From assembly GCF_002949795.1 (NCBI RefSeq), contig NZ_CP026692.1, positions 2,960,545-3,024,544 of the forward strand: a DNA stretch of 64,000 bases. The letters run 5' to 3'. Both the position numbers and the translations under genes were made by a program. Below the pieces are notes generated by a model. The model made no database searches. It worked only from the letters and a program-made list of their open reading frames with translations, and was not told where the DNA came from. This DNA is from Nostoc sp. 'Lobaria pulmonaria (5183) cyanobiont'. GTDB taxonomy: Bacteria > Cyanobacteriota > Cyanobacteriia > Cyanobacteriales > Nostocaceae. Within the stretch, counting starts at the first letter, position 1. Each line of letters begins with the position of its first letter. Shown here piece by piece: positions 15,833 to 31,434 of the stretch.

Positions 15833-17107
15833 ATGAACCCAGAGGCATCTCAAACCCCAGAACCAATTGATGAGCGGTTGACAGAAAAACCAGAAGAGAA
15901 CAATGTAGTTGAACATCCAGTTGATCCATCAGTTGAGTCAGTGGTAGACACAAAAGCCATTAGCTCATCAGAGGACTACACAACTTTTGAGCCACTCATT
16001 TCCAATGCAGAAGTGGTAGATTCTACAGTAGAGCTAACAGAAAATTCAAATGGCGAGTTTGTCGCGCAGTTAGAAGCGGAAAATGTCGCCCTGGGGTCTG
16101 AAATAGGATCGGGAAATCATTCATTATATGTAGAAGCAGAGCAGCGAGTGGCAGAGTTGCAAAGTGCCCAAGCAGCTCTCAAGTCAGAAATAGCCAAGCT
16201 GCAAGCTTCTTACGAAAAGCTTCAGACACAGGTGAGTGAAACTCAAACCTCACTGGGGCGACTCGTGCAAGAGTCGCTAGTGCAATTAGAACAACGCAAA
16301 CAAACCCTGCAAATTTCTGTAGAACAATTAGAACGCCGTCAAGAACGTATCCGCAATGAGATGCGAACTACTTTTGCTGGTACATCCCAAGACTTGGCAA
16401 TTCGGGTACAGGGTTTTAAGGACTATCTCACAGGTAGTTTACAGGATTTGGCTTCTGCCGCCGAGCAGTTGCAACTAACGCCAAGTGTGGTGGAACGAGA
16501 AAAACCATCTGTAAAAGAGGCTAAACCAACTGAACCCCAACCTGGAATACCCCAATTTGCCCAACAGCAGTTTCAAGATACTACAAAGCAAATTCGCCGC
16601 CTAATTGACCAATACCGCAATAAACCAGATTACTACGGCCCACCGTGGCAACTACGCCGTACCTTTGAACCAATCCACGCTGAACGAATCTCCAACTGGT
16701 TTTTTACCCAAGGAGGAAGGGGTGGTTTGCGGACAATGGGTAGCCGCTTACAAAATATTCTGATTGCCTCAGCTGCAATTTCGATATTACACAAGCTGTA
16801 TGGCGATCGCGTCCGTACTTTAGTCTTAGCTAATACGCCAGAGCGATTAGGTGAATGGCGGCGCGGCTTGCAAGATTGTCTAGGAATCGGTCGCCCAGAT
16901 TTCGGCCCAGACCGGGGTGTGGTATTATTTGAGGCATCTGATGCTCTCGCTCAAAAAGCAGACCGATTGACGAAAGCCAATCAATTGCCTTTAATTATTA
17001 TTGACGATTCAGAAGAGCAAATCAGTCTATCACTGCTGCAATTTCCACTGTGGTTAGCCTTTGCTCCTGACCCCAAAATAGTGAGAAACTATGATGATGA
17101 CTTTTAA
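15833..17107 (+). CDS. DUF3086 family protein with coiled coil
   Basis: About 424 residues from ATG 15833; a TTG at 15827 with AGGA nine bases upstream is an alternative. The first 90 residues are acidic and disordered. Residues about 100-185 form a long coiled coil (AEQRVAELQSAQAALKSEI and following). The C-terminal half carries the conserved DUF3086 domain (RRTFEPIHAERISNWFFTQG, later LGEWRRGLQDCLGIGRPDFG). The family is cyanobacterial and unstudied as far as I know. No membrane segment. It follows mlaE and DUF3119 and precedes plsY. Confidence 0.82.
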   Translation: MNPEASQTPEPIDERLTEKPEENNVVEHPVDPSVESVVDTKAISSSEDYTTFEPLISNAEVVDSTVELTENSNGEFVAQLEAENVALGSEIGSGNHSLYVEAEQRVAELQSAQAALKSEIAKLQASYEKLQTQVSETQTSLGRLVQESLVQLEQRKQTLQISVEQLERRQERIRNEMRTTFAGTSQDLAIRVQGFKDYLTGSLQDLASAAEQLQLTPSVVEREKPSVKEAKPTEPQPGIPQFAQQQFQDTTKQIRRLIDQYRNKPDYYGPPWQLRRTFEPIHAERISNWFFTQGGRGGLRTMGSRLQNILIASAAISILHKLYGDRVRTLVLANTPERLGEWRRGLQDCLGIGRPDFGPDRGVVLFEASDALAQKADRLTKANQLPLIIIDDSEEQISLSLLQFPLWLAFAPDPKIVRNYDDDF

Positions 17108-17184
17108 ATGAGTCATTAGTTATTGGTCATTGGTCAAGAGTAATACCTCTTGACTTTTTTAAATTTTGAATTTTGAATTGTATT

Positions 17185-17865
17185 ATGGCTATTTGGTTAA
17201 CTCTGTGCGGGGCAATTGTAGTTATAGCTTACCTGCTGGGTTCTTTTCCCACTGGCTACATCGCTGTGAAGCAGTTAAAAGGTATTGATATTCGGGCGGT
17301 TGGTTCAGGTTCCACTGGCGCAACTAATGTACTAAGAACCTTGGGGAAAGGCCCAGGAGCATTGGTTTTAGTACTTGATTCCTTAAAGGGAGTATTAGCG
17401 ATCGCTCTAGTTTATTGGTTGTTCAACTTTGAACCAATTCAAAATTATATCCCTCCAACGGTAGATGTACAACTGTGGCAGGCGTGGGTAGTAACAATAT
17501 CTGGGTTAGCTGCTATTCTGGGACATAGTAAATCAATTTTTTTGGGCTTTACCGGTGGTAAATCTGTTGCCATCAGCTTGGGGATTTTGTTGGCAATGAG
17601 TTTGCAGGTAGGTTTAGCAACAGCAAGTGTGTTTGCTGTCGTTATGGCAATATCGCGGATTGTTTCTTTAAGTTCAATTGCAGGTGCGATCGCAGTTTCC
17701 ATTTTCATGGCACTTTTGCATCAACCTTTACCCTATATTCTGTTTGGGATTGGCGGTGGGTTGTATGTGATTTTACGCCATCGCACTAATATTGAACGAC
17801 TATTTGCGGGAACGGAGCCAAAAATTGGGCAACCTGTAGCGACAGAACCCGAACAAACTGCATGA
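17185..17865 (+). CDS. plsY: Glycerol-3-phosphate acyltransferase PlsY
   Basis: A 226-residue membrane enzyme that transfers acyl groups from acyl-phosphate to glycerol-3-phosphate, the first step of phospholipid synthesis. The PlsY motifs are present: GSFPTGYI at the N-terminus, GSGSTGATNVLRTLGKG, and GHSKSIFLGFTGGKSVA. About five to seven membrane helices are visible. ATG at 17185 is used because MAIWLTL is the natural N-terminus; the TTG at 17173 would add four residues. Its position after the lipid permease mlaE is suggestive of membrane lipid functions grouped together. Confidence 0.95.
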   Translation: MAIWLTLCGAIVVIAYLLGSFPTGYIAVKQLKGIDIRAVGSGSTGATNVLRTLGKGPGALVLVLDSLKGVLAIALVYWLFNFEPIQNYIPPTVDVQLWQAWVVTISGLAAILGHSKSIFLGFTGGKSVAISLGILLAMSLQVGLATASVFAVVMAISRIVSLSSIAGAIAVSIFMALLHQPLPYILFGIGGGLYVILRHRTNIERLFAGTEPKIGQPVATEPEQTA

Positions 17866-17950
17866 TAGGTAAGCGAGAGCAAACTCAAAACTCTTCTCTC
17901 ACAAGGGGAGAGCTTCTTCCAGAATTAGTATCTATATTGATGTTTTAGGA

Positions 17951-18208
17951 TTATGACCGAACGTTGCCTTTAATTAAACGGTGGAAAAGGCGGCAAGGCC
18001 AGAAAAAAGCTCCACAAATACTGACTGAGGCGATGGCGGCCACAACTCGCCAACTTGAACTAAACTCAGTTTCAGACTCTGAAGGATGAGCTTGTGTATT
18101 TTTAGCTAATTCTGGCATTGAATGAGATAGCTGACTGGCTGTACTCACCCCTTCAATCGCTGCTCCAATTAGATAAGCTACTAGGGCAATTACTAGCCAG
18201 TTATTCAT
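17951..18208 (-). CDS. Small membrane protein downstream of T4SS-like cluster
   Basis: About 85 residues from ATG 18208 (GGAATATT precedes it), giving MNNWLVIALVAYLIGAAIEG. Two hydrophobic helices (residues about 4-20 and 53-70) flank a polar linker of about 30 residues. The ATG at 18247 would add 13 polar residues. It is on the same strand as the secretion-like genes upstream and could belong to them, but a 355-bp gap and another small gene intervene. No family recognised. Confidence 0.5.
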   Translation of the reverse strand: MNNWLVIALVAYLIGAAIEGVSTASQLSHSMPELAKNTQAHPSESETEFSSSWRVVAAIASVSICGAFFWPCRLFHRLIKGNVRS

Positions 18209-18271
18209 AATATTCCACTGTTTGAACTCTGAGCGTATGATTGGCAACGAGCAATCATTTGATTTTTAGGA

Positions 18272-18511
18272 CTAATGATTGCCACCTTGGCCTAAAGATA
18301 ATCGACCTTCAGCTGTATCACGTATTAGGGGCAGTTTAGATTTTATATAAGTATTGAGAGTGCTATCTGTCTGGGCGTCAAGACCTTGCTTTGCTTGTAA
18401 CTGCTGGAAAAGCAATTGTACTAAAGCGGCATCATCAAACTGGAGCAGGGTGCTAACTTGGGTAGACTCGATTACAGCCCAAAGCTGTTGCATCATTTTC
18501 GCTGTTACCAT
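18272..18511 (-). CDS. Small unknown protein
   Basis: A 79-residue soluble, helical protein (MMQQLWAVIESTQVSTLLQF, then FDDAALVQLLFQQLQ). ATG 18511 has AGAGG about 9 bases upstream. Lacks membrane segments or known motifs. It lies between the secretion-like cluster and a small membrane protein, all on the minus strand. Function unknown. Confidence 0.5.
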   Translation of the reverse strand: MVTAKMMQQLWAVIESTQVSTLLQFDDAALVQLLFQQLQAKQGLDAQTDSTLNTYIKSKLPLIRDTAEGRLSLGQGGNH

Positions 18512-18866
18512 GAGTCTGTAACCTCTTAAGCTTTTCTTTATATTTACACGATTTTGGAATTTATGGTCAGTTTTTATTTGAAGATTTATAAAGATATAGG
18601 CTAAAAATGCCTGAGTTTGTTAAGTCAGTATAAGCTATAGCGTTTTTTAAGTGATTGAACTATTACACAACTGTATACACTTTATCTTAGCCGTACCATT
18701 TAAAGAAATAAAACTGCCAAAAGGCTTAAATCCTCCCTAACCTTTTTTAGAAGGAGGGAATTATAGCAAGGGTTTTGATCGGCAAAAATGCAGACATACG
18801 TAGGCATCAACGCTTTTTTCAACAGTAAATTTCTGTGGCTATCGGGTAATTTTGCTAGAACTTTAT
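18512..18866. other. Gap below the T4SS-like cluster
   Basis: 355 bp. Read on the minus strand, 18765-18722 can fold into a weak stem (CCCTCCTT with AAGG..AGGG, two-base bulge) that could end the secretion cluster's transcript. A 62-codon minus frame here overlaps the real gene end and is not credible. Confidence 0.35.
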
Positions 18867-19439
18867 TTATTGTAAAACTTTCGCACAAGCTCCTTCCTGA
18901 CCAGAAGGATCGGGAAAAACTGCTAAAGTGTGATACTCAGGATTATCTGTTTTATATATAACTCGAAAAGTATACAGCTTGTTTTTACCTTGCGCTTCGG
19001 TAACAACTGTTAAAAGTGTATTACTAGTGGGAGGAAGTCCAGGAATGTCCAGTTTTTGAATTCGTCTGAGTTGAATTACATTTGCTGCGGAGTTTTTACA
19101 ATCTTCTGAACTACTATTAGCTTCTTGACCAAACTGCATACATACTGGGCCATCAAAACTTATAGTTACTTGTGATGGGTCATTTAACCAAACTTTTTTA
19201 ATTACTTCTCCAGCCGGAATAAAACTTAAGTTTGTTCCTTGTTGATACCAAACGTCGATCGTAGGTATTAGTCCCCCTAAACCTTGTGCTTGGCAGGAAA
19301 ATACGGAACGCAGAACGGCGTTATTAGCTACAACGCGACCTACCAATAAGAACATAGCAACCGAGAAAATTAAGGAAGCTATAGGTATGAAATAAGAACG
19401 TTTTGGGGTATTTACTGACAAGTTAATATTCTTTTTCAT
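18867..19439 (-). CDS. VirB9/TraK-like secretion protein (tentative)
   Basis: A 190-residue protein with a basic N-terminus, one membrane helix or uncleaved signal (IASLIFSVAMFLLVGRVVA), then a beta-rich extracytoplasmic domain. The segments TNLSFIPAGEVIKKVWLN and QLRRIQKLDIPGLPPTSNTL resemble the beta-sandwich of TraK/VirB9-type outer ring proteins. Three or four Cys residues may form disulfides. It is the last gene of the cluster, directly after the VirB10-like gene, a common place for a VirB9 relative. The assignment rests on context plus weak pattern, so it is tentative. Confidence 0.5.
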   Translation of the reverse strand: MKKNINLSVNTPKRSYFIPIASLIFSVAMFLLVGRVVANNAVLRSVFSCQAQGLGGLIPTIDVWYQQGTNLSFIPAGEVIKKVWLNDPSQVTISFDGPVCMQFGQEANSSSEDCKNSAANVIQLRRIQKLDIPGLPPTSNTLLTVVTEAQGKNKLYTFRVIYKTDNPEYHTLAVFPDPSGQEGACAKVLQ

Positions 19440-19476
19440 GGTTGCAAATATCTAAAATTGGTATAAATATTACCCC

Positions 19477-21093
19477 TTAAAACTGAGTTGGTTGATTAAC
19501 GTAGATTTCAATATTTGTGCCTGCTGGCAAAAACCAAACATTAGTTTGTTGAGACATTTGAGCGATCGCCTGTTGATTGCGTTGGGCGATTTGGGGAACT
19601 ACAGAGTTCATACCACCTTCTAAAACAGCAGCTGCAAGGTTGCGTCTGTTCTTAGTGACTAAAATAGGATATGCACTGGTGACGTTACCGTTAGAAGAGC
19701 CATCGGGGTTGGGGGTGGGGTTAATTGTTGGATATTGGTATTCACTATCACTACGATTTACTAACTCTGCTGCTTTACCAATACCTCCCAAAACGAATAG
19801 TCCTGCATCCATTGAGGCTATAGATGAACTTTGACCAGGAAATTTATTTGCGATTAAAGGTTTACCTTGAGTACCGCGAAGAATAATTGCATTGTTGGGT
19901 AAGCTTCGTTCTGTGGGGTTGCCATTATTTTGCGAGATAACTTTGACTATGTTCATCTGCAAAAGACCTTGTTCAGAAAGCGAACCAATTTCAGCTAGGA
20001 ACTCGGTGTTTGCAGGTAGAGCGACCGTACCATCGGTAGATTTTAGTGCTTCTTTCAATCGGATCACAAATACGTTTTTCGCTTCATCTGCATCACCACC
20101 ACCACCTGACTTATTACTAGTTTCTCCAAATATTGCTGTCGCCAACACAGCTTTGGCACTACTCCCAACTGCTACAGATTTCTGTCCCTGCGGTTGGGCT
20201 TGACTGACCGCAGAATTTTCCGGTTGTGGGGTTTGTGGGGTTTGCTCAGGATCGGGGTTTGGTGTCTCTTGCTGCTGCGGCTGTGTAGTCTTTGCAGGTT
20301 CCAAAGTAGCTATATTACTAGTAGGTTGATTGCTAGGATTCACTTGACCGTAGCTACCTAACTTTGCTAACCTTGCCCACTCTTCAAATGGGCTTGGTGG
20401 GGGTGGTGGAGTTACATTAACAACCGGTTGAGTATTTGGCTTCGCAACTAGTGGCTGGGGTGATAGCAAAGGTTGAGAAGCAGGTACTCTAATGATGCGC
20501 TCAACTGTCACTGTCCGAGGTACGTAAGCTGTTGGTGGGGGTGTTGGGATCACTTTCTGTCTAACTGACGGTTGTTGTAAGGCTACTGTCGGCGTTGATT
20601 TGGCAATTCTAAGCTGTTGTTGGGCAGCTTTCACCATCTGTGCTTGTTCACTCAGGGCTAATTTCGTTTTGAGAGTATCTATTTGGCCTTCCATCTGTTG
20701 AGATATGGATTCATCAGTGGGCTGCTGTTGCACTGGTGGAGAAACAATAGTTTTTGGCTTTTGATTGCTGCCACTCATCAACTGAGACAAAAACACACCA
20801 CCCACCAAAACGATCGCTAAGGTAGCAGCCCCCACCAAGCCTAACTTGGCAAAGGGATTAGATGAGAGTGCTTGCTTGGTCTGAACTTCTTGTGGAAGAG
20901 ATAGCGACTCTGGCGGCGTTGCAGAGTCTTCCGATCCTTGAGTATCACCAGAAGAAGATTCTTCTTCAAAGCCGACCAACCTTGACATCCGTGATTCCCA
21001 ATCTACAGATTCTACTTCTGGTTGGCGATCGTCGGTGGTAAGAGTAAATCCATTTTGGGGAGGCGTTTGGGCAGGAATTGAGTATCGGGTCAT
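19477..21093 (-). CDS. VirB10/TraB/TrbI-like T4SS channel protein
   Basis: About 538 residues from ATG 21093; a TTG at 21123 would add ten. The domain order is that of VirB10: an acidic cytoplasmic N-terminus, one membrane helix (GLVGAATLAIVLVGGVFLSQ), a coiled-coil stretch (EGQIDTLKTKLALSEQAQ), a long Pro/Gln-rich periplasmic linker, and a C-terminal domain with SSAKAVLATAIFGE, VALPANTEFLAEIGS and the VWFLPAGTNIEIYVN end that matches TrbI-type C-termini. VirB10 spans the envelope and forms the T4SS core with VirB7 and VirB9. Eight bases separate it from the gene upstream. Confidence 0.82.
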   Translation of the reverse strand: MTRYSIPAQTPPQNGFTLTTDDRQPEVESVDWESRMSRLVGFEEESSSGDTQGSEDSATPPESLSLPQEVQTKQALSSNPFAKLGLVGAATLAIVLVGGVFLSQLMSGSNQKPKTIVSPPVQQQPTDESISQQMEGQIDTLKTKLALSEQAQMVKAAQQQLRIAKSTPTVALQQPSVRQKVIPTPPPTAYVPRTVTVERIIRVPASQPLLSPQPLVAKPNTQPVVNVTPPPPPSPFEEWARLAKLGSYGQVNPSNQPTSNIATLEPAKTTQPQQQETPNPDPEQTPQTPQPENSAVSQAQPQGQKSVAVGSSAKAVLATAIFGETSNKSGGGGDADEAKNVFVIRLKEALKSTDGTVALPANTEFLAEIGSLSEQGLLQMNIVKVISQNNGNPTERSLPNNAIILRGTQGKPLIANKFPGQSSSIASMDAGLFVLGGIGKAAELVNRSDSEYQYPTINPTPNPDGSSNGNVTSAYPILVTKNRRNLAAAVLEGGMNSVVPQIAQRNQQAIAQMSQQTNVWFLPAGTNIEIYVNQPTQF

Positions 21094-21101
21094 GGTAGAG
21101 C

Positions 21102-21794
21102 CTAGTTTGGATTTCCAGAACAATTATTATCTTTAATTTCACATATATTATAAATTTCTAATCTGGCTTCCCCAAGGCGGTAAGCTGCAAACTGCGACGG
21201 TAGTGCTGCATTTGGTAGTGAAGTTGCAGGTTGATCTATTGCTCTAACTAAAATTTGTTTATTAAAGGAAACTGATTTCCCTAATTTATCATAACTGTTA
21301 AAAATTAATTGATTGGCAAGTATCTCTACTTTCCACTTTCCATTACTTATTTCTTGAGGTTGAGAAACTTTTTGGATTACTAAGACATTCTCCGCTCCTC
21401 GATTAACATTTTCAAATTGGCTATCTGGATTTAAATTAGTAATTTGTGACTTAAGTTTTTGTTTAAAATCATCAGCTACTAGTTGGGAGGTAATTTCCCA
21501 GATTTGTGTTGGTGGCTGCTGTTGTGACCAGGTAAGCATTAAACTCATAGTTTCACCCACAAAGCGCCGAATAGTCTCTGGTTGTCGCTCTAAATTGGGT
21601 TGCGGGTCTACCGTTATAGCATGACCATCAACAAGTTGCACTAAACTTTGAGGTGTGAGTTGTCGACCTAACTGTTGTAACATAGACCAGTGAAATATTA
21701 GTAACAGTAAGGTAAATAGATGTAAACCAAACGTTCCTACTGCCAACAGGGGTAAAGGGCTATTTTTTTTATTTTCTGGTTTGAGTAATTGCAT
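21102..21794 (-). CDS. VirB8/TraE-like T4SS protein, copy 2
   Basis: A 230-residue bitopic protein: short cytoplasmic N-terminus, one membrane helix (AVGTFGLHLFTLLLLIFHWS), then a soluble alpha/beta domain (PETIRRFVGETMSLMLTWSQ, later ISNGKWKVEILANQLIF). This shape is that of TraE/VirB8 proteins, which bridge the inner membrane platform to the core. It shares the layout and several motifs (LVQLVDG or FVQLIDG; E-P/T-I-R-x-F; M-x-W-S) with the gene just upstream, so the two are paralogues. Two Cys near the C-terminus may pair. Confidence 0.6.
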   Translation of the reverse strand: MQLLKPENKKNSPLPLLAVGTFGLHLFTLLLLIFHWSMLQQLGRQLTPQSLVQLVDGHAITVDPQPNLERQPETIRRFVGETMSLMLTWSQQQPPTQIWEITSQLVADDFKQKLKSQITNLNPDSQFENVNRGAENVLVIQKVSQPQEISNGKWKVEILANQLIFNSYDKLGKSVSFNKQILVRAIDQPATSLPNAALPSQFAAYRLGEARLEIYNICEIKDNNCSGNPN

Positions 21795-21840
21795 TAATAA
21801 TCGATCGTATAAATTGAACTATCTTCATGTAAAAAATCGA

Positions 21841-22662
21841 TTATCTGATAAAACTATCAGATGTTTGTCCAGTTCCGCATTGTTGTGATTGATTTTTGTT
21901 CGGGTTGTAGTCATCTAGCAAACATAAATTCCGAATTTCATAAATTTCTAGTCTATCAGCGCGGACACTATAAATTGCTTTTTGCACATCGGTGCTATTG
22001 TCGGCTTGGGGATTAGCGAAATAATCTGCTGCACGTACAAGTAAATCTTTATTAAAAGGAGTTATAAGTTTTGCACCACCAACTCGATTTTTTTGAACTA
22101 AGTCCGCTACCATACCCACTTGCCACTTCCCTGGTGCAATTTGTTTTGGCGGATAAACTCTTTTAATTACTAGTTGTGAAATCATCGCTTGGTTGGGATT
22201 TTCAGAGAAAACTTCTGGCGGTGTTATTTCTGCAACTGTGCTTAAGAAACCTTTGCGAAAGTCTTCTGACAAGGCAAAACTAGCTACCCAACTGCTGGTA
22301 GTAATTTTTTGGCTACTACCTTGAGGTGTGTTAATCAGTATTCCTAAATCGGATTTGGGGTTTGCGACTTCTTCAATAGTTTGTGGTGGTAAGGTTCCAG
22401 ACCAACTAAACATTGATATCATCGTTTTGCTGATAAATTGGCGAATTGCTTCTGGTTCTCTTGCTAAATCATCAATATTAGCTACTGGTTTACCATCGAT
22501 TAATTGCACAAAGTTGGGAGGTTTTCTCAGACTGAGTTGGCGAATATTTAGCCCTTGTAATAAGAATAAAAATAAAACTAATATATGTAAACTAAAGGTT
22601 GCGATCGCAAAAAGCGTCAAAACACTTCCCGTTCTTTGTCTTTTTTCTAGTAAACGCACCAT
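21841..22662 (-). CDS. VirB8/TraE-like T4SS protein, copy 1
   Basis: A 273-residue relative of the following gene: basic N-terminus, membrane helix (IATFSLHILVLFLFLLQGLN), the FVQLIDGKPV motif, EAIRQFISKTMISMFSWSG, and a C-terminal alpha/beta domain ending near RADRLEIYEIRNLCLLDD. It is longer than its paralogue by an inserted segment around residues 105-130. Being a single-pass protein in a run of secretion genes between VirB6-like and VirB10-like genes fits the VirB8 slot. Sequence similarity alone would not prove it. Confidence 0.6.
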   Translation of the reverse strand: MVRLLEKRQRTGSVLTLFAIATFSLHILVLFLFLLQGLNIRQLSLRKPPNFVQLIDGKPVANIDDLAREPEAIRQFISKTMISMFSWSGTLPPQTIEEVANPKSDLGILINTPQGSSQKITTSSWVASFALSEDFRKGFLSTVAEITPPEVFSENPNQAMISQLVIKRVYPPKQIAPGKWQVGMVADLVQKNRVGGAKLITPFNKDLLVRAADYFANPQADNSTDVQKAIYSVRADRLEIYEIRNLCLLDDYNPNKNQSQQCGTGQTSDSFIR

Positions 22663-22765
22663 TTACTCACCTCCTTTTGCAAAAACTTCAGCTATTATAT
22701 ATGATGTTTTGCATATACTTACTAGTTACAACACTTACATTTATTCATTTTTAATTTTTAATTTT

Positions 22766-23815
22766 CTATATCCTTTCTTTTACTAAAGAAGCCGTACTGC
22801 TGATAGCACTGAAGACCGCAAAACCACCAGCAGCAGCCACAAGTAAAGATAAAATTGGTGCTAAAATCCCCAGAAAAATTATGAACCACATTAAATCTGG
22901 ATCGACATTAGCATTTTGACCTGGGCCATTGACAATCACTGCGGCAGTCAGCACAGCAATAATATTGAATGAAATTTTAGCGATTCCAATAGATAAAAAG
23001 CCGGTCAGCCATGCAAAAATTGGTTTACCAGCTACAGGTAGCAAAGATCCACCTACAGCAATTGGCCCTAAAACTGCTATTAACAACATAGTAGCTTCTA
23101 TCAAATTTTGGAAGGCATATTGTAAGGAAACTAAAAAGTTTTTGATGCTCGTTTGGACTGTAGAACCTAACAGAGAATTAAAAGAAGTTTCTGATACAAT
23201 GCCAGTCCCATATCTGATATTATCTACTTTAGTTTGTAGTCTATTTATCCAATTTTTATTTCCATAAATATTTCTATATTTCTGCCAGAGAACCTTAATT
23301 TTTTCAGCAGCATTAACAAAACATTGACTTTGTTGTTCACCAGTAAGAGATTGACAAGGACGTAGTAAAGAACCAGCTACTTCTTCAGCAACACTCATAT
23401 TCAGTGCTTGCTGATATATTTTATCTGCATCTGCTGAAACCACTACTTGCTGATTCACAGTGTTTAAAACATTCCGTACTCCCAATGTCAGATTAGACAG
23501 TATACTTCCATTGCCTGAATTACTTAAGAGTACTACCACAATAAAAGGCCAAATTAAAGCTGATATGGGACGGGTGTATTCGTAGGATATTAAGTCTTTA
23601 AGGAATTGTATCATAAAAAACAACAAGGTTCCTACAGCAAAAAAAATACCCAGATTTGTCAGCGCTCCATACAAGTTATTACTGGTGTTATTTTGTAATA
23701 AATCCAGCCATTGTTTGTCCCAACCTTCGGCAATACTTTGGGAAGTTGCGGCACCATTATCGATAACCTGATCGATGCCTACTTGGGCAAAAATTAGTTT
23801 AATAGCAAGTTGCAT
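22766..23815 (-). CDS. VirB6/TrbL-like polytopic T4SS protein
   Basis: A 349-residue integral membrane protein with five to six hydrophobic segments: near residues 50-70, 85-100, 225-255, 260-290 and 305-345. A loop of about 120 residues (VLNTVNQQVVVSADADKIYQ and following, with the Cys pair LRPC...QCF) lies between segments two and three. This arrangement, together with its position, fits VirB6/TrbL, the inner-membrane platform protein. The C-terminal Ala/Gly-rich helix (LSLLVAAAGGFAVFSAISS) is typical of the group. Confidence 0.65.
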   Translation of the reverse strand: MQLAIKLIFAQVGIDQVIDNGAATSQSIAEGWDKQWLDLLQNNTSNNLYGALTNLGIFFAVGTLLFFMIQFLKDLISYEYTRPISALIWPFIVVVLLSNSGNGSILSNLTLGVRNVLNTVNQQVVVSADADKIYQQALNMSVAEEVAGSLLRPCQSLTGEQQSQCFVNAAEKIKVLWQKYRNIYGNKNWINRLQTKVDNIRYGTGIVSETSFNSLLGSTVQTSIKNFLVSLQYAFQNLIEATMLLIAVLGPIAVGGSLLPVAGKPIFAWLTGFLSIGIAKISFNIIAVLTAAVIVNGPGQNANVDPDLMWFIIFLGILAPILSLLVAAAGGFAVFSAISSTASLVKERI

Positions 23816-23964
23816 TTTGAATTGATGGGCTATTTTTTTAGATTTTGCCAGGTGCGTTAGGAAAATAACCCACCATACTAAGCTTTTTTAGATTTCCTGT
23901 TGCTTTTTCAGAAGTTAAAGGATTTTAAAATTGTCTAAAATATTAGAGGTTTTTTATTAAAATC

Positions 23965-24798
23965 CTACTTATTAACTTGTCTGCCAAACAAATCTAGTTG
24001 AGAAGTCGCTCGTAAAAGTCGCGCTGCTTCTGTAGATGTTTCTACTCTCCGAGCGCGATTCGCCTCTTCTGACTGCTGAGAAATGTTTGCTAAATTTAAG
24101 TTGGAATATTGTAAAGCCTGATTATTTTGTAATGTCTGACCAAATGTTTCAGCTACAATTTTTATTTGTTCCTGTTGAATTTTCATCATTTGCACTTGAC
24201 TAACACCTAGCAATTCTGCTAATCCAGAAATAGCATTTGCTTCTGGAGTTGCAGCTTTACCTGCATTAGTAATACCAGACTTGATTTGATTGATAAATGT
24301 ATTATTACTATCCTGTATATCCTGAGCAAATCCCTCAATATCTTCCAGAGATTTTTCTGTATTTTCTAACTTTACTTTTGTCCTAGTTTGTCCATTTTTA
24401 CCGAGAACACCTACCGCTACTCCACGGGTAATTATACGATTAAGTTCATTACTAATTAAATTTCCCCGTACTGCTGCATTATTCTCAAAGCGACTTGATT
24501 TAGCATCTGAATTATAAGAGTAGTTAATTGAATCATCACGAATTTTTTGTCCCGCAGCAACGGGGTTAGGTATCTTCAAATCTCCCTTGGCACTCTCAAT
24601 AGCAATTTGACTCTGACTTTGTTCTAAAGGGTTTAAGGTATACTTCAAGTTATTATGTTGAAAGTAATCTTGCATATCTTGGGAATATGATTGAAAGTCA
24701 GTCCAAACCTGACCTAATCCGCCTGTCTGAATTTGTGCGATCGCTGGTAGTATTCCCAGAGATAGCAAGGTAAAAGTAAAAATGATAGTTTTTCGCAT
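23965..24798 (-). CDS. VirB5/TrbJ-like secreted T4SS protein (tentative)
   Basis: A 277-residue protein with a clear signal peptide (IIFTFTLLSLGILPAIAQ, cleavage after AIA) and a helical mature part. The C-terminal region (MMKIQQEQIKIVAETFGQTL, later QLDLFGRQ) and the early DFQSYSQDMQDYF segment resemble VirB5/TrbJ proteins, which sit at the pilus tip and hold a helical bundle. Located between the VirB4 and VirB6-like genes, the usual VirB5 slot. The match is by shape and position, not by strong motifs. Confidence 0.6.
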   Translation of the reverse strand: MRKTIIFTFTLLSLGILPAIAQIQTGGLGQVWTDFQSYSQDMQDYFQHNNLKYTLNPLEQSQSQIAIESAKGDLKIPNPVAAGQKIRDDSINYSYNSDAKSSRFENNAAVRGNLISNELNRIITRGVAVGVLGKNGQTRTKVKLENTEKSLEDIEGFAQDIQDSNNTFINQIKSGITNAGKAATPEANAISGLAELLGVSQVQMMKIQQEQIKIVAETFGQTLQNNQALQYSNLNLANISQQSEEANRARRVETSTEAARLLRATSQLDLFGRQVNK

Positions 24799-25062
24799 AT
24801 ATCTGTGCCTGAAAAAGGTAGACTACATTATATAGTGAGGTAAAAATTTAGCTTTTGAACCGTGCTGATTTTGGATTTTGGATAATAGAATTAGTTTTTC
24901 GGTTAAATCCCCGACGCTATTCTAAAATCTAAAATTCCTAAGCTACAACCCAAGAATGGGTGCAGGAAATCTAAAAGACGTTGGTAATTTGCTAATGCTA
25001 CACTATCAGAAATTTAAAATCCAAAATGGTTTGACTCACTATTAACTACTTACATAACTCAA

Positions 25063-27810
25063 TTAACTACTACGTAGAGTAGCCACTAATTGACGCGCAA
25101 ACGCAGAAATTGCTTCATATTTATCACTGTGAAGTTGCATCATTTTGCTACGTGCAGTTTGTTCAGAGGGGTTATTCGCAACTGCTGCCAATTGTTCGTA
25201 ACCTGGATAGTAACGGCAGAATGTATAAATACCGTTATCATCTAGCAGCCATTGGCTATAAACGCCTTCTTTGCGGGGAAAAAAGCTTTCTGAGGCATTA
25301 CGAGAAATAACTTGGCGGGGATATTTCAAGATGTCTGCAAAACTATCTACTGCAACTGGCTGGATGCGTCCAATCAACCGTGTTGTCAGGTTTTGCAATA
25401 TTTTCGATGCAGCTTTAGATTTGGCAATGGTGTCAGGATCTTGTCCTGATAAAATAACTCTGATACCGGCTTTAGCACCGTTAGCACAAATTCTACCAAC
25501 TAAGTCGGAAATTTGCTCAAACTCAAATAAAATTGGTGCTTCGTCGATAAAGAATATGGAAGCTGGACTACTTAATGCGCGTCGGAGTGCGGCTGAATAG
25601 GCACTTAAGGATAGTACGGCTGCATCTTCACTATCTGATAAGTTTCTGAGAGCAAAAACTAAAAGCTGTGCATCGGTAGGAAAGCTAGATGGTGCAGAAA
25701 TAGCTTGTCCTACGCGGCTAGAAAGCCAAAAGCGTAAGCGCAACTGAATTTGGCTGAGAGCGTCTTCTACTCTGCCAGTTAAAGAACTTAGCTGCAAGTG
25801 TTCTGGCGAGCAGAAAAAGAGAAAATCTTTTAAAGTGGGGGTTTTCTGCCAAGCAAGAGTGCCAAATCCTCCCTCCATAGCCTGTTTATATCGCTCTTTG
25901 ATACCCTCATCTCTAAAGAAGGCTTCTAAAGCGAGGTTGAGCAGCGATCGCACGGTTTGCGATAAGATTTGACTTTCAGTGGACGATCCTAAAACCATTG
26001 TCATTAACGCTGATTCGAGGAAGGCGGTATAATCATTAAAGCGATCGCGCTGTTGTTCTGCTTCTAGCGATCGTAAATCTGGCTGTTCAAATAAGTTATT
26101 CGATTGTTTGGAGATATCAAAATAGGCTCCATTCCCCTCCATAAACTCTGTATAGTCAGTGAAAGTAGATGTTCCATCAGGTTTGGGGAAATCTAACGCC
26201 ACAACCGGAATCCCATGCGCTAAAGCCTGAGTTAAAATCCCTGATACCAACACCGATTTACCAGCACGAGTTGTAGCAAACAAAGCTAAATTTTTGTGTT
26301 GATTAAATAAATCTAAATGTATTGGTGTTCCACCTTCTTCAGCAATCAACTCAAAACCTTGTTTGTCACCTTTTTTACTTAAAACTAGAGGCATTAATCC
26401 CGGAACTTCACTAGTTAAATATAGCTGGCGACGGTTGAAGGGTGTTGCTAATAAACCCTCCCAAACTATTGGTAGAGTTTGCAGCCAAATTTTCCAGGCA
26501 TATTCAGTTTCCCTAATTACCTTGGCTGGGCGTTGAAAACAATTTTCAATATATCTTGTCGCCTCATCTAATTTTTCTACAGTTGGACGATGTACTAAAA
26601 TGGCGACACTCGTATAAATCGGGACTGCACCTTCAAATAACTGTTCTTGTGCTGCTACCGATTTCTTCAACTTTAATTGAGCGTTGACATCAATAGTTTT
26701 ACTTTTTTCTTGAGCCATGATTGTCGTCATGTTTGACTGCTTCAGCACTCGTTGCAAAGTAGTTTTTACCACTGCTGGATTTGCGGCAGTCAACTCACAA
26801 AAAATTTCTGTATCTACTACTGTTTCTCTGGCCAACAGCTCCCATAAATAGCGCAGTTGAGCCGATTTATTGGGCCAACCGCCGGGTTTTTCCAGAAATG
26901 ACAGCGTGCCAATATAACGATTATTAACATTAACCCAGCGGCGATCAGCACAAGGTACACTGGATTCCATCAGCAAAGTTGTGCCGTGGATATTGTCTAG
27001 AAGTAATTTAGTACTAGCTAAATCGGAATTAACTTGTTCGTGTAGTCCTTGTTCATCTAAAGTCATTAACTGGGGAATATCTATTGGCTGCGTATCATTA
27101 AACCTTTTCCAGATGTCACTCCAAAGTTCATCAGCAGTCAAAGGTTTGACATCCAATCCCATTTTGTTAGATAAGATTTGTTCCCAGCGAAGAAAACCTT
27201 GGTTGTAAGCATTTGTAATCAGGGTTTCAATGCGTTGATTTTCAACTTCTGAAAGATCGCCTTTGAATTTCAACCACCACGATTCAGCTTTGACTAAAAG
27301 CTTTTCTATCCAATCATCTGCGTGTTGCGAGTTAGATTCAATGGTGTAAGTGACATAAATCCGCAAAAATTTGGGTTTACGAATTCCAGAAAGAGTCAGC
27401 TCTTTAACTCTGGCTCTCTCCGCCATCAATAAATATTTTATGTCTCGCGATGGGGCATTTCTGATTAATGTTGCTAATTCTTTTTGGCGTTCTTTGTCTG
27501 AACTAAAAGATCCCAAGTGCAGCGTCATCCTTTCACCGCTAGGAATATCTTTTAATCCGGCTTCAATGTTATTAAAAAGTGTATCAATTTGTTCAGGTCT
27601 TAAGGTGGTATGAATTCCCTTACAATCAAAACCAAAAACAAAGCAGAACCGATCTTTTTGAGTACCTTTTGTCAAAAGATAAGCGCCAATATCACGTCCA
27701 TTCATTGCTACACGCAGCATTGTCGCCAAGTGCAAGGCATCTTCAAATGGTGTTAATCTACTTTCATTTCCGGCGATGCCGACGCTTTGTTTTCCGATTT
27801 TTTGCTTCAT
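25063..27810 (-). CDS. VirB4/TraC-type T4SS ATPase
   Basis: About 915 residues from ATG 27810, which has GGAAG upstream; a TTG at 27843 would add 11. The C-terminal half carries a P-loop, ATTRAGKSV (about residue 515), fitting [AG]x4GK[ST], and a Walker B SIFFIDEAPILFEF about 240 residues later, then SGQDPDTIA and TTRLIGRI. These are the marks of VirB4/TraC ATPases that power pilus assembly and substrate transfer. The N-terminal domain (PSGERMTLHLGSFS, TRYIENCFQRP) is the platform-binding part. The start overlaps the VirB3-like gene by 47 bases, indicating coupled translation. Confidence 0.9.
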   Translation of the reverse strand: MKQKIGKQSVGIAGNESRLTPFEDALHLATMLRVAMNGRDIGAYLLTKGTQKDRFCFVFGFDCKGIHTTLRPEQIDTLFNNIEAGLKDIPSGERMTLHLGSFSSDKERQKELATLIRNAPSRDIKYLLMAERARVKELTLSGIRKPKFLRIYVTYTIESNSQHADDWIEKLLVKAESWWLKFKGDLSEVENQRIETLITNAYNQGFLRWEQILSNKMGLDVKPLTADELWSDIWKRFNDTQPIDIPQLMTLDEQGLHEQVNSDLASTKLLLDNIHGTTLLMESSVPCADRRWVNVNNRYIGTLSFLEKPGGWPNKSAQLRYLWELLARETVVDTEIFCELTAANPAVVKTTLQRVLKQSNMTTIMAQEKSKTIDVNAQLKLKKSVAAQEQLFEGAVPIYTSVAILVHRPTVEKLDEATRYIENCFQRPAKVIRETEYAWKIWLQTLPIVWEGLLATPFNRRQLYLTSEVPGLMPLVLSKKGDKQGFELIAEEGGTPIHLDLFNQHKNLALFATTRAGKSVLVSGILTQALAHGIPVVALDFPKPDGTSTFTDYTEFMEGNGAYFDISKQSNNLFEQPDLRSLEAEQQRDRFNDYTAFLESALMTMVLGSSTESQILSQTVRSLLNLALEAFFRDEGIKERYKQAMEGGFGTLAWQKTPTLKDFLFFCSPEHLQLSSLTGRVEDALSQIQLRLRFWLSSRVGQAISAPSSFPTDAQLLVFALRNLSDSEDAAVLSLSAYSAALRRALSSPASIFFIDEAPILFEFEQISDLVGRICANGAKAGIRVILSGQDPDTIAKSKAASKILQNLTTRLIGRIQPVAVDSFADILKYPRQVISRNASESFFPRKEGVYSQWLLDDNGIYTFCRYYPGYEQLAAVANNPSEQTARSKMMQLHSDKYEAISAFARQLVATLRSS

Positions 27811-28135
27811 TGTTAACTTCCAGTAAGCTTTGATAACGAGCAAAGCCTCTTGTCCAAGCGGGAACCCCGATAAATTTACTTAAAAAACTCCAACTCCTAC
27901 CACCAGTTAAGATCCACCAAGTTCCTATTCCCCAACCAGTAATTAGTACTGTCCACAACCATTTTTGAAACTCTTCTTGAAAAATCCCCCCAAAAATCCC
28001 ATTGATAATAAAGTAGGAGGCTAAGGCAATTACCGTCCAAGGAAGAATTTGATCGGCAGGAATTGGCCCTAACGAAGGTTGGCTTCCCAGAACTTGATTG
28101 ACTGGACGAAATTCTTGTTCCCGCTCTTGAGACAT
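27764..28135 (-). CDS. VirB3/TraL-like membrane protein
   Basis: A 123-residue protein with a polar N-terminus (QEREQEFRPVNQVLG), two close hydrophobic helices (ILPWTVIALASYFIINGIF and WLWTVLITGWGIGTWWILT) and a basic tail. Small two-helix proteins directly before virB4 are typically VirB3/TraL, which anchors the ATPase. The 47-base overlap with the VirB4 gene supports this. The tail ends KTKRRHRRK. Confidence 0.6.
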   Translation of the reverse strand: MSQEREQEFRPVNQVLGSQPSLGPIPADQILPWTVIALASYFIINGIFGGIFQEEFQKWLWTVLITGWGIGTWWILTGGRSWSFLSKFIGVPAWTRGFARYQSLLEVNNEAKNRKTKRRHRRK

Positions 28136-28149
28136 TTGAAATATCTAAA

Positions 28150-28770
28150 TTATTTATTAGGGCTAGCGCCAATTACAAAGCCTGTAAGTACATCAGCAAC
28201 GGTAACAGCAACAACCACTAATAGGGGAGTTCTGGCGATGCTTTGCCAATCTTCATCTTTACGCACTGCGTTAATCACACCAACTAAGGAAATTGCAATA
28301 TAGAGTAAGTAAATTGCCCGCAACACATTAAATATCAAACTTATTGCTGTGTTGCTATCACCACCATTGGTTGCTGAACCACGGAAGCTGGTTTTGAAAA
28401 AGTCTTCAGCTTTACCAAAAAATTGAGCTTGTGCGGGGGCTGCAAACCAGTCTAACCAATACAAACTCAGAACGATCGCTGCTGCTAAAATTTGTAATAA
28501 TATTAGCGATCGCCTTGGTAAATTCACTTGCTGTCCCATTTGCTGGATGATAACAGCAATTAAACTACCAACAAGTAAACAAAACAGCAGGATAGGACTT
28601 TTTAGGCTGATAACGCTAACCAATACAGCACAAGCAATCAAAAAAGGTACAGATTCAAGCAGAATAGTCAGACAGGATTTAAATGCCCGTCTTAACTTGT
28701 GAGATTTTTTCGCCGCACTACCAGTTAAAGCTTTGAAAAAGTTTCTCTCGTGAGAACTTTGTCTAAACAT
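28150..28770 (-). CDS. VirB2-like pilin precursor (tentative)
   Basis: A 206-residue protein with AGGAAAA before ATG 28770. Residues 1-35 are basic, 36-110 hold three hydrophobic segments, and a signal-peptidase-like site lies near residue 115 (DWFAAPAQA|QFFGKAEDFF). The part after the site, with two helices (NVLRAIYLLYIAISLVGVI and TPLLVVVAVTVADVLTGFVI), has the size and hairpin topology of a mature VirB2/TrbC pilin. The N-terminal region is much longer than usual pilin leaders. It is first in the cluster, where virB2 commonly lies. Confidence 0.5.
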   Translation of the reverse strand: MFRQSSHERNFFKALTGSAAKKSHKLRRAFKSCLTILLESVPFLIACAVLVSVISLKSPILLFCLLVGSLIAVIIQQMGQQVNLPRRSLILLQILAAAIVLSLYWLDWFAAPAQAQFFGKAEDFFKTSFRGSATNGGDSNTAISLIFNVLRAIYLLYIAISLVGVINAVRKDEDWQSIARTPLLVVVAVTVADVLTGFVIGASPNK

Positions 28771-29327: not shown

Positions 29328-30521
29328 CTAGATTACAAACTTAAACACAGTTCCTAGATTAGAACTACCGCCATTCGAGGCAGTACCGTAAAAGGCACCA
29401 TTTGAGAGCTGAATTAGCGTGGACTCTGGCGTTGCTCCATTAGTACCATTAAAACTAATTAAGCCGGTGATGGTTGCCCCAGTCAGCTGATAAATAACTC
29501 CTTTGTTATTTGCCCCACCAGCAGATGCTGTGCCATAGAAGTTACCATTGCTTGCTTTTATGAGTGCAGCCGTTGGGTTGGCCCCATTGGTGCCATTAAA
29601 ACTAGCAACTAAAACGGGTGTACCGCCACCAACTGGAACCTTGAATATAGCTCCTTTATTGCTGGCTCCACCCAGTTTAGCGGTGCCGTAGAGGAATCCA
29701 CTAGATTCAATTAATCCAGATTGCGGATTTGCCCCATTGGCGCCACTAAAGCTATATGAAGTCAGTATTCCTGCGGGAGTTAACTTGAACACAACTCCTT
29801 TAGCACTTGTTCCACCGGCAGAAGCACTGCCATAGTAGTTTCCATCGGTAGCCAGTTGCAATCTTGCTAATGGAGTTGCTCCATCAGTACCACTGAAGCT
29901 TCTAATGGTGGTGAGTGCCCCGGTGGTGGGCGAAACCTTGAATATAGTTCCTTTCTTATTGGCCCCACCTGTAGAGCTTGTCCCCCACAAATTGCCATCA
30001 GTACCTGTAATCAGTCGGCCTGCTGGGTTAGCCCCATTAGTGCCTGTGAAATTTGTAAGAGTTGTCAGGGTTGTAAAAGCTGTTTTTGCCAACTTAAACA
30101 CACTGCCGAGGTCACTTGTACCACCTGTAAAGGTTGCCCCATATAAATTGCCATCGGCTGCTTGGAATAATCTAGCAACTGGATTAGTCCCTTTATTGAT
30201 TCCAGAGGTTCCGGTGAAGTTTATTAGTGTGGTCAGAGTAGTGAAAGCAGTAGGAGTTAACTTGAATGCAGTTCCTTTGCCAGAAGTGCCACCAGCAGAA
30301 GTAGTTCCATAAAGATTGCCATCAGTACCGTTGCCTTTAAGTACACCAGCTCTTGGTGTAGCTCCGTTGGTGCCGTTGAAATTTACAACAGTAGTCAATG
30401 TTGCAGCAAAGGCTTGTTGGAAGGGTAGTAGTAGTGAAGAAGCTAAAACAGTCGTCAGAGAAGTTAAAATCAATACCTTATTTTTGCTCTGGCGTTGTTT
30501 GTACAGATTAATCTTGTTCAT
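29328..30521 (-). CDS. Secreted seven-repeat GloVer protein
   Basis: About 397 residues from ATG 30521, which has GAGG six bases upstream. A signal peptide (VLILTSLTTVLASSLLLPFQ, cut after AFA) is followed by seven tandem units of about 50 residues, each with a variant of DGNLYGTTSAGG..KGT.FKL. This is the GloVer tandem repeat (TIGR03803 type), which should fold as a beta-propeller; seven units suit one closed ring. No C-terminal anchor is seen, so the protein is probably released or surface-associated. Function of the family is unknown. It is not co-directional with any close neighbour except the secretion cluster beyond the terminator. Confidence 0.85.
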   Translation of the reverse strand: MNKINLYKQRQSKNKVLILTSLTTVLASSLLLPFQQAFAATLTTVVNFNGTNGATPRAGVLKGNGTDGNLYGTTSAGGTSGKGTAFKLTPTAFTTLTTLINFTGTSGINKGTNPVARLFQAADGNLYGATFTGGTSDLGSVFKLAKTAFTTLTTLTNFTGTNGANPAGRLITGTDGNLWGTSSTGGANKKGTIFKVSPTTGALTTIRSFSGTDGATPLARLQLATDGNYYGSASAGGTSAKGVVFKLTPAGILTSYSFSGANGANPQSGLIESSGFLYGTAKLGGASNKGAIFKVPVGGGTPVLVASFNGTNGANPTAALIKASNGNFYGTASAGGANNKGVIYQLTGATITGLISFNGTNGATPESTLIQLSNGAFYGTASNGGSSNLGTVFKFVI

Positions 30522-31434
30522 TGAATACCTCAAAAAAAGTTAGTGGAGACGGAATTGTAGCTAGTTCTAACGGATTTTGTGATGGCTGCTACTCATGACT
30601 AAATACCAATTTGAAAAACGATCGCTACAAATGTAGGTTAGGAAGCCACGTCTGTAGAAGGGTTTTCCAGCTTTTCTGCGTTTAAGCAAGCTACGCCTAG
30701 CCTCTCCCTTTGGATAAAAGGAAGAAACAAGTGGCGTTTGAAGGAGGAAACCCAAGACCCCAACATCTTGTATGTGTTGGGTTTTACTCCGTCATCTACA
30801 AGATATTGCTACGACTCAATCTACGTGTTGAGCGCAGTTTTATCTAAAGTTAGTAGAATTTGTCAGCCTAGACACTAGTGAGAAAATGCCTTAAATGTTG
30901 GTATAGCCCTATTTGAAAAGGACTCAGAAAGCCTGTTTTACCAACACCACAAAAACCGTACTAGCACTGAGTCAATAACGTGAATGGCACGATTAATGAT
31001 TTCGTTCGGTAGCATAAAACATTATTTATATTTTTGATGTCGTGAAAAACACAAAAACAGTGAAAAATCCACGATTTTGACAGAATATAGTCACAAAACT
31101 CGATTCCGAGCAACCCAGATAGTGTGTTTTTTGTCAAGCAATTAGTAAACTCTATTAAATACTGATTAAAGCCTCTAAAAAATATTAATAAGAAAAACTA
31201 CATACTTAAATGAAAAATGAAAGGTTTTTATTTTCTTTAAAAAAAGAATAAAAGTGTTTTAAAAGTAGTTTTAAAACAGTGGATATGCTCCTCTTCCCGC
31301 TGCCATTAAAACTCTATCTCGAAATGTTGTGAATACTTACGTCAAACCATAATTGGGTGAATACTGTTTTTAGTCTTATCCTCCCTTGTATCCTTTAGGT
31401 TTTTAAATGTCTTGACAAAGATATGAAAGTTATA

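Follow-up and report, generated by a model that had tools for sequence, protein, structure and literature searches.

A chromosomal VirB gene cluster of Nostoc-like cyanobacteria without a linked coupling protein and with hypervariable segments in VirB5 and VirB10

The 64,000-nucleotide stretch of the chromosome of Nostoc sp. 'Lobaria pulmonaria (5183) cyanobiont' analysed here (the window) contains nine consecutive minus-strand open reading frames (ORFs), at 18867-28770, that are the equivalents of VirB2-B3-B4-B5-B6-B8-B8-B10-B9 of type IV secretion systems (T4SSs). Our results suggest that the cluster may well be a cyanobacterial conjugation apparatus of mating-pair formation class C (MPF_C), that ceased to serve conjugation long ago and has been maintained as a chromosomal contact or recognition pilus, a reading to which we give about even confidence. 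The cluster is widespread in Nostoc-like cyanobacteria and chromosomal wherever this could be determined. Judged by substitution rates, its nine genes are under purifying selection, while in Nostoc hypervariability, as measured by column identity, is confined to a segment of VirB5 and a loop of VirB10; the occurrence of such segments in two of the nine proteins is new. We consider a contact pilus the best reading because the motor is strictly conserved, most of the variation lies in parts expected to face outwards and the parts that would load DNA have been lost.

Relation to plasmid transfer operons

A plasmid of the same cell, C2 (121,770 bases), carries an operon B2-B3-B4-B5-B6-B8-B10-B9 with significant gene-by-gene similarity to the chromosomal cluster and matching order. 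The first chromosomal gene, at 28150..28770 (all window coordinates given here are on the minus strand), encodes a VirB2-like pilin precursor of 206 residues, 36% identical to its C2 counterpart. It is followed by a VirB3-like protein (27764..28135, 123 residues, 37%), the VirB4 ATPase (25063..27807, 914 residues counted from the likely ATG, 54%), a VirB5-like pilus-tip protein (23965..24798, 277 residues, 26% over 99 residues), a VirB6-like membrane protein (22766..23815, 349 residues, 34%), two VirB8 proteins that correspond to one plasmid gene, namely VirB8a (21841..22662, 273 residues, 32%, the closer copy) and the lineage-specific duplicate VirB8b (21102..21794, 230 residues, 23%), VirB10 of the TrbI family (19477..21123, 548 residues, 28%) and a VirB9/TraK-like protein (18867..19439, 190 residues, 42% to the plasmid gene at the same position). 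An earlier sequence-only reading of this DNA, in whose list the VirB4 ORF begins at 27843 and not at the likely ATG at 27807, had proposed such a nine-gene T4SS-like set; all the ORFs are present, in the gene order of C2, and the small proteins, whose membership of unrelated families would have counted against that reading, instead match a plasmid conjugation operon. Past B9, C2 encodes a 399-residue protein without a Pfam match (p399), a VirD4 protein and a protein with a relaxase domain.

Plasmid A of Trichormus variabilis has the identical order from VirB3 onward, and on pCC7120alpha of Nostoc PCC 7120, which has been typed MPFc, alr7206 is VirB4 and alr7213 is VirD4 (PMC8600333; statements on this and the other papers cited refer to the excerpts consulted). 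From the locus numbers we infer that six genes lie between these two, as on C2. Colinearity with cyanobacterial plasmid transfer operons and a VirB4 related to theirs place the chromosomal cluster in MPF_C. PLSDB labels cyanobacterial transfer systems (NC_007410, NC_007412 and others) MPF_T, where the literature has MPFc for pCC7120alpha. A further observation on C2 is a secreted protein with a TPS domain, beside a TPR-CHAT protein and a kinase-TPR protein, at about 16235-24156.

VirB4 and VirB10 had been called strong by motif. VirB10 scores above the cut-off of the Pfam TrbI family (PF03743; 38 bits against 35). The NCBIfam matches of VirB4 (TraC, 1.6e-14; VirB4_CagE, 1.4e-10) fall under the curated cut-offs, and its Walker A ATTRxGKS and IDE motifs are invariant in 16 aligned orthologues. 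Pfam gave no T4SS family match for the seven other proteins, nor did NCBIfam for the six of them scanned (all except VirB3), and profile searches of the VirB9-like, VirB8a, VirB8b, VirB5 and VirB4 proteins against solved structures gave zero T4SS matches; the VirB9-like protein matched no Pfam family, NCBIfam family or solved structure. By eye, the N-terminus of VirB5 resembles a signal peptide. Structure prediction produced an AlphaFold2 model of VirB8a (a long helix and an alpha/beta domain; predicted local distance difference test, pLDDT, 61.1) and a beta-rich model of the VirB9-like protein (an N-terminal helix and a beta domain, pLDDT 60.6), both too weak to inform the assignment. A by-eye comparison of the region upstream of virB2 in 18 loci gave no clear motif.

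Coupling protein and relaxase across the lineage

VirB4 matches are present in 86 of 243 genomes of the order. We defined the lineage by a near full-length VirB4 match at least 69% identical to the window protein, which is found in 16 of the 243; in nine of these the contig that carries the cluster exceeds 5 Mb, which makes it the chromosome. In the window's own family, among the genomes listed, 13 of 29 have the lineage VirB4, with none in the nine genomes of genus g5. From a scan of named genomes the best 80 of 170 relatives were used (VirB4 80-98% identical); they come from Nostoc, Desmonostoc, Anabaena, Trichormus, Calothrix, Tolypothrix, Westiellopsis, Nodularia, Rivularia, Rhizonema and other genera, by name mainly Nostocales, and mainly from draft contigs not assigned to a replicon type. 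Among 113 plasmid records with a VirB4 match, 112 show less than 60% identity, the sole exception being an 880 kb replicon of Gloeothece verrucosa (75.6%). The window, the 80 named-genome loci, 15 loci from the other genome set and the Gloeothece locus make up the 97 loci considered below, which are not all independent genomes (at least three apparent recurrences between the two genome sets).

A VirB4 tree with 60 rows, obtained by a quick search and with some long branches outside the lineage, places the 39 rows that come from the lineage (39 of its 97 loci) on one side of a branch with a Shimodaira-Hasegawa-like approximate likelihood ratio (SH-aLRT) support of 97, in a clade that spans several families. 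Of 21 selected lineage loci, 20 have two VirB8 genes, and each of 23 selected loci from outside the lineage has one. The two copies fall into separate groups (SH-aLRT 98 each), the B8b rows forming one side of a branch; the 80 named-genome loci gave 74 matches for B8a and 75 for B8b, several of the misses being contig ends. On this tree evidence VirB8 was duplicated once, ancestrally in the lineage.

All nine genes were seen in 82 of the 97 loci, and 10 of the 15 others end less than 1 kb past the last gene detected; VirB2 was detected in 96 loci and a VirB5-like ORF in 94. There are broken or rearranged loci: L134 (Nostoc sp. T09) has a full-length VirB4 match and none for B6, B8a or B9, which indicates decay or rearrangement, and in L048 and L049 (genomes G142 and G232) the operon is partly on the opposite strand, with B9 found in neither and one VirB8 not found in L049. 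Loci of this kind would suit a decaying remnant of an integrated plasmid. As an account of the lineage this is hardly credible, since most loci are complete, dN/dS (given below) is far below 1 and one VirB4 clade extends over several families.

With VirD4 queries (tblastn), no VirD4 was found near VirB4 in any of the 97 lineage loci, against 17 of 21 other loci; this regional negative is incomplete, as B9 plus at least 3 kb past the cluster is available in 76 of the 97. The four other loci without VirD4 are L054 and L056, which start at a contig start, L060, which is shorter than 10 kb, and L053, without VirD4 across its 20 kb. Similarly, p399 is found in only one lineage locus (L051, the earliest-branching in the VirB4 tree) against 19 of the 21 others. 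Whole-genome searches close the gap for the 16 lineage genomes: the VirD4 family PF02534 has no match in seven of them (one a single contig), the relaxase family PF03432 none in eight, and these two and PF01076 are all unmatched in six (one single-contig genome and five drafts), the relaxase families being limited to these two and the PF01076 search taking in 10 of the 16 genomes. In the two genomes with VirD4 on the contig of the cluster, the distances are about 0.5 and 1.6 Mb. A query with an integrase of the cell's own plasmid found nothing in the 97 loci (a general integrase search was not made), and a Pfam scan of the nine window flanking genes showed no integrase. The earlier proposal of a chromosomal machine that is not an integrative and conjugative element (ICE) is supported by the VirD4 and relaxase results, with none of the three families beside the cluster.

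The rest of the window's own genome does contain VirD4 and relaxases, as the search recommended by the sequence-only reading showed, all on plasmids: the sole PF02534 match is on C2, PF03432 is on C2 and C5, and PF01076 is on C2 and C3. The chromosome has no PF03432 or PF01076 match. It is therefore conceivable that plasmids residing in the cell, with a relaxase and VirD4 of their own, rely on the chromosomal channel in trans, as a spare mating bridge. We regard this as most improbable, given the seven cluster genomes without a PF02534 match and the fact that C2 has channel genes of its own. The reported absence of VirB11 from the window also stands, none of the four matches to the VirB11 family PF00437 in the genome lying there, but as an argument it is less telling because many conjugation systems also lack VirB11 (PMC13395361).

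The best-scoring relatives from other orders have VirD4 in 8 of 8 fetched loci and p399 in 7 of 8. Loss of VirD4 within the lineage is the simpler reading because all eight of these loci keep it. Uniform VirB4 scores had suggested that other orders hold another retired lineage. This was rejected: the seven loci concerned, termed f39-type (five from family f39, with f49 and f30 contributing one each), have p399, VirD4 and one VirB8 match region in every case. Very similar VirD4-bearing operons occur in seven other-order genomes (L172-L174 and L176-L179), several of them on megabase contigs; these are perhaps ICEs. In genome G191, contig C3 carries two near-identical transfer operons of plasmid type, separated by about 2.7 Mb (L052 and L053, the latter without a match for B9, p399 or VirD4) on a chromosome that also holds the lineage cluster.

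Variable segments of VirB5 and VirB10

Ratios of nonsynonymous to synonymous substitution rates (dN/dS), as medians over up to 34 Nostoc-group loci, were 0.064 for B3, 0.067 for B4, 0.165 for B6, 0.18 for B8b, 0.25 for B8a, 0.27 for B2, 0.33 for B9, 0.43 for B10 and 0.50 for B5, the highest of the nine, with plsY at 0.19. The seven VirD4-bearing f39-type loci, our control, gave 0.052 for B4, 0.087 for B5, 0.031 for B6, 0.058 for B8, 0.12 for B9, 0.18 for B10, 0.21 for B2 and 0.13 for B3. The ratio of B5 to B4 is thus about 7 in the lineage and about 2 in the control. For pairs with a VirB4 identity of 0.95-0.98, VirB5 has a median identity of 0.67 in Nostoc (200 pairs), 0.86 in other chromosomal loci (25 pairs), 0.87 in plasmid loci (7 pairs) and 0.94 in f39-type loci (11 pairs), and at a VirB4 identity of 0.88-0.92 the corresponding values are 0.67, 0.63, 0.79 and 0.80, from pairs that are non-independent and control groups that are small.

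Within VirB5, which forms the pilus tip in other systems, residues ~151-200 (24199..24348) have a column identity of 0.19-0.48 in 31 Nostoc-group loci, and the equivalent place in 49 other chromosomal loci has 0.15-0.34. There is no such dip in VirB5 of 24 control loci (10 and 7 plasmid loci and seven f39-type loci), where the lowest 15-residue windows are 0.46 (an N-terminal one), 0.77 and 0.69; one plasmid control, L194, has no VirD4 in the stretch examined, which stops at the record end. Segment identity shows no relation to VirB4 identity (Spearman -0.01, 465 pairs): two strains with VirB4 98% identical have 6% of the segment in common, and two at 91% have 80% in common. At 70% identity the 31 segments form 22 groups. 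The ratio of nonsynonymous to synonymous differences (pN/pS) in the segment is 0.44, against 0.26 and 0.16 in the flanks (17 independent close pairs). Classical positive selection on the segment is not demonstrated by these values, pooled pN/pS being 0.99 (277 of 465 pairs unsaturated) and that of the 17 independent pairs 0.44. Relaxed constraint fits the numbers too, because pN/pS is above that of the flanks and yet below 1.

In VirB10, residues ~460-491 near the C-terminus (19651..19746) have a column identity of 0.25-0.40 in 30 Nostoc-group loci, against 0.83-0.92 and 0.68-0.98 in the flanking stretches. This loop is the sole low stretch; the TrbI region at the C-terminus is conserved on either side of it, and these two conserved stretches would by analogy be the antenna helices. 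The loop between the antenna helices would be expected to face the cell exterior. In other systems the antenna crosses the outer membrane (PMC6520456). Loop identity is scarcely correlated with that of VirB4 (Spearman 0.11), whereas the rest of VirB10 follows VirB4 closely (0.87). In the two chromosomal groups the loop has median identities of 0.31 and 0.32, compared with 0.64 and 0.90 in the plasmid groups and 0.75 in the f39-type loci; for the rest of the VirB10 tail the values are, in the same order, 0.80, 0.60, 0.61, 0.82 and 0.85. Some of eight pairs examined combine a common loop type with raised identity of the surrounding DNA, most clearly L085/L101; such a pattern fits allele exchange, without amounting to a formal test. 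The idea that a longer loop characterises the lineage in general was considered and rejected: the median length is 37.5 residues in Nostoc, 20 in other chromosomal loci, 22 in plasmids and 20 in f39-type loci, so that it is long in Nostoc only (lineage versus rest, p = 0.29). In Nostoc, every 15-residue window of the seven remaining proteins is at 0.57 or higher. On these identities, neither variable segment tracks species divergence, and both are far better conserved in plasmid and VirD4-bearing relatives.

A machine of any function might show this pattern if phages or grazers recognise the VirB5 tip and the VirB10 loop, the two varying as a means of escape. Both segments are in parts expected outside the cell, and they vary independently of VirB4 and of each other (Spearman 0.09), as such an escape would lead one to expect. 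Nevertheless, plasmid VirB5 and VirB10, which perhaps face the same phages, do not vary in this way, and no phage that uses this pilus is known to us; we hold surface escape to be rather unlikely.

Genomic setting and comparison with known systems

The cluster is flanked by ordinary chromosomal genes, as had been noted from the sequence. By Pfam these are MlaE, DUF3119, DUF3086 and plsY on one side and DUF3134, MltA and CemA on the other, with two flanking genes lacking a Pfam match. Short minus-strand families that overlie the cluster resemble shadow ORFs of conserved genes. The place of insertion varies from one genus to another and, inside a genus, is fixed only in part: plsY follows within 0.4 kb of a small gene, orf98, in 17 of 34 Nostoc-group loci, 10 loci have orf98 and no plsY across the 2.2-2.8 kb examined, in G313, which belongs to the genus of the window, plsY is unmatched across 12 kb, and all four genomes of genus g2 have one common, different downstream gene set. 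Therefore, the module has moved occasionally and has mostly been inherited in place among near relatives.

Two small genes, orf79 (18272..18511) and orf98 (17951..18247), adjoin B9 in 27 of the 34 Nostoc-group loci and had been put forward as private components of the machine. We reject this: they are neighbours, an independent gene pair. Homologues of orf79 are present in 114 of 117 genomes of the family (35 full-length at 67% identity or more, the remainder more distant or partial), with orf98 beside orf79 in 10 of 10 fetched places, nine of which have no matched VirB gene or plsY in the stretch; G085 carries the pair and has no VirB4 match genome-wide. Also nearby are a 401-residue protein at 29328-30533, repetitive and with an export-like start by eye, without a Pfam match and matched near the cluster in 10 of the 80 named-genome loci, and, on the VirB2 side, an MltA-type lytic transglycosylase at 33093-34382, of a family found in 24 loci, which could supply a VirB1-like activity or be there by chance.

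We favour a contact-pilus function that would work like Bartonella Trw. In this proposal, VirB4 would power the building of a VirB2 pilus that carries VirB5 at the tip and passes through an outer membrane channel made of VirB9 and VirB10. With no coupling protein to load DNA or protein from the cytoplasm, the pilus itself would be the product. The VirB5 tip and the outer membrane loop of VirB10 would contact something external, such as a partner, a surface, kin or a host, and this contact would favour new variants. VirB5 has been termed the main pilus adhesin (PMC12624023). The step from segment variation to recognition is an inference from sequence. A more specific and tentative idea, which we think possible though doubtful, is that the VirB5 tip and the VirB10 loop are exchangeable identity tags, so that a retired conjugation machine would now serve kin or partner recognition.

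Several observations weigh against a contact pilus. Most components evolve faster than in the VirD4-bearing control, B6, B8a, B9 and B10 included, and part of the rise in VirB5 (0.50 versus 0.087) is therefore general to the lineage. The acceleration of VirB5 is weaker outside Nostoc, where its identity is 0.86 at a VirB4 identity of 0.95-0.98, but 0.63 at 0.88-0.92. The pN/pS in its segment is below 1. VirD4 is encoded elsewhere in 9 of the 16 genomes and could act in trans. The assignments of VirB5, VirB8 and VirB9 depend on position, weak homology and topology. Finally, VirB5 is single-copy, unlike the multiplied VirB5 of Bartonella Trw.

Other VirB-only systems suggest other functions. In the VirD4-less Ptl and Brucella systems, proteins exported to the periplasm by Sec are expelled through the machine in a second step. 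Both of these have VirB11, and none is linked to the cluster here; beyond the nine genes, no gene family is common to the whole lineage (97 loci) and hence no conserved neighbour is a candidate substrate, although the substrate may be unlinked. The envelope parts that such secretion would need are retained, and VirD4-less T4SSs of this kind are known; Ptl itself lacks VirB5, which is kept here (PMC12857230). On balance we consider two-step secretion unlikely. DNA uptake in the manner of ComB of Helicobacter pylori we judge improbable. Cyanobacteria take up DNA via type IV pili. The composition of the cluster is near that of ComB, likewise VirB-only, without VirD4 and without a linked VirB11; because ComB uses a VirB11 encoded elsewhere, a distant helper may exist here too (PMC13395361). 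ComB, however, has no VirB5, whereas the lineage keeps it, with the highest dN/dS of the nine.

The MPF_C plasmid systems of pCC7120alpha, T. variabilis plasmid A and C2 resemble the chromosomal lineage in genes and order, with VirB4 about 54% identical to that of C2. The lineage differs from them in having no VirD4, relaxase or, except in L051, p399, and in having two VirB8 genes and the hypervariable segments. Guglielmini et al. (2011) described MOBless, that is relaxase-less, T4SSs in cyanobacteria among others (PMC3158045); the lineage, its VirB8 duplication and its variable segments do not appear in the excerpts of that account, and no description of this lineage was found in the literature listings and excerpts searched. 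A TXSScan survey knew non-conjugative, protein-secreting T4SSs only in MPF_I and MPF_T (PMC4793230). A widely kept lineage without a coupling protein in a third class would extend retirement from conjugation to the cyanobacteria, and the two variable segments offer a concrete, testable handle on what the outer parts of a T4SS contact. Bartonella Trw is also VirB-only and related to conjugation systems, lacks VirD4, has variable pilus parts and has been proposed to form adhesive pili (PMC12857230). The lineage shares with it the absence of VirD4 and the retention of VirB5. Trw is related to plasmid R388 and has multiple VirB2 and VirB5 genes, whereas in the cyanobacterial lineage both are single (no locus among the 97 has more than one ORF for either) and it is VirB8 that is duplicated.

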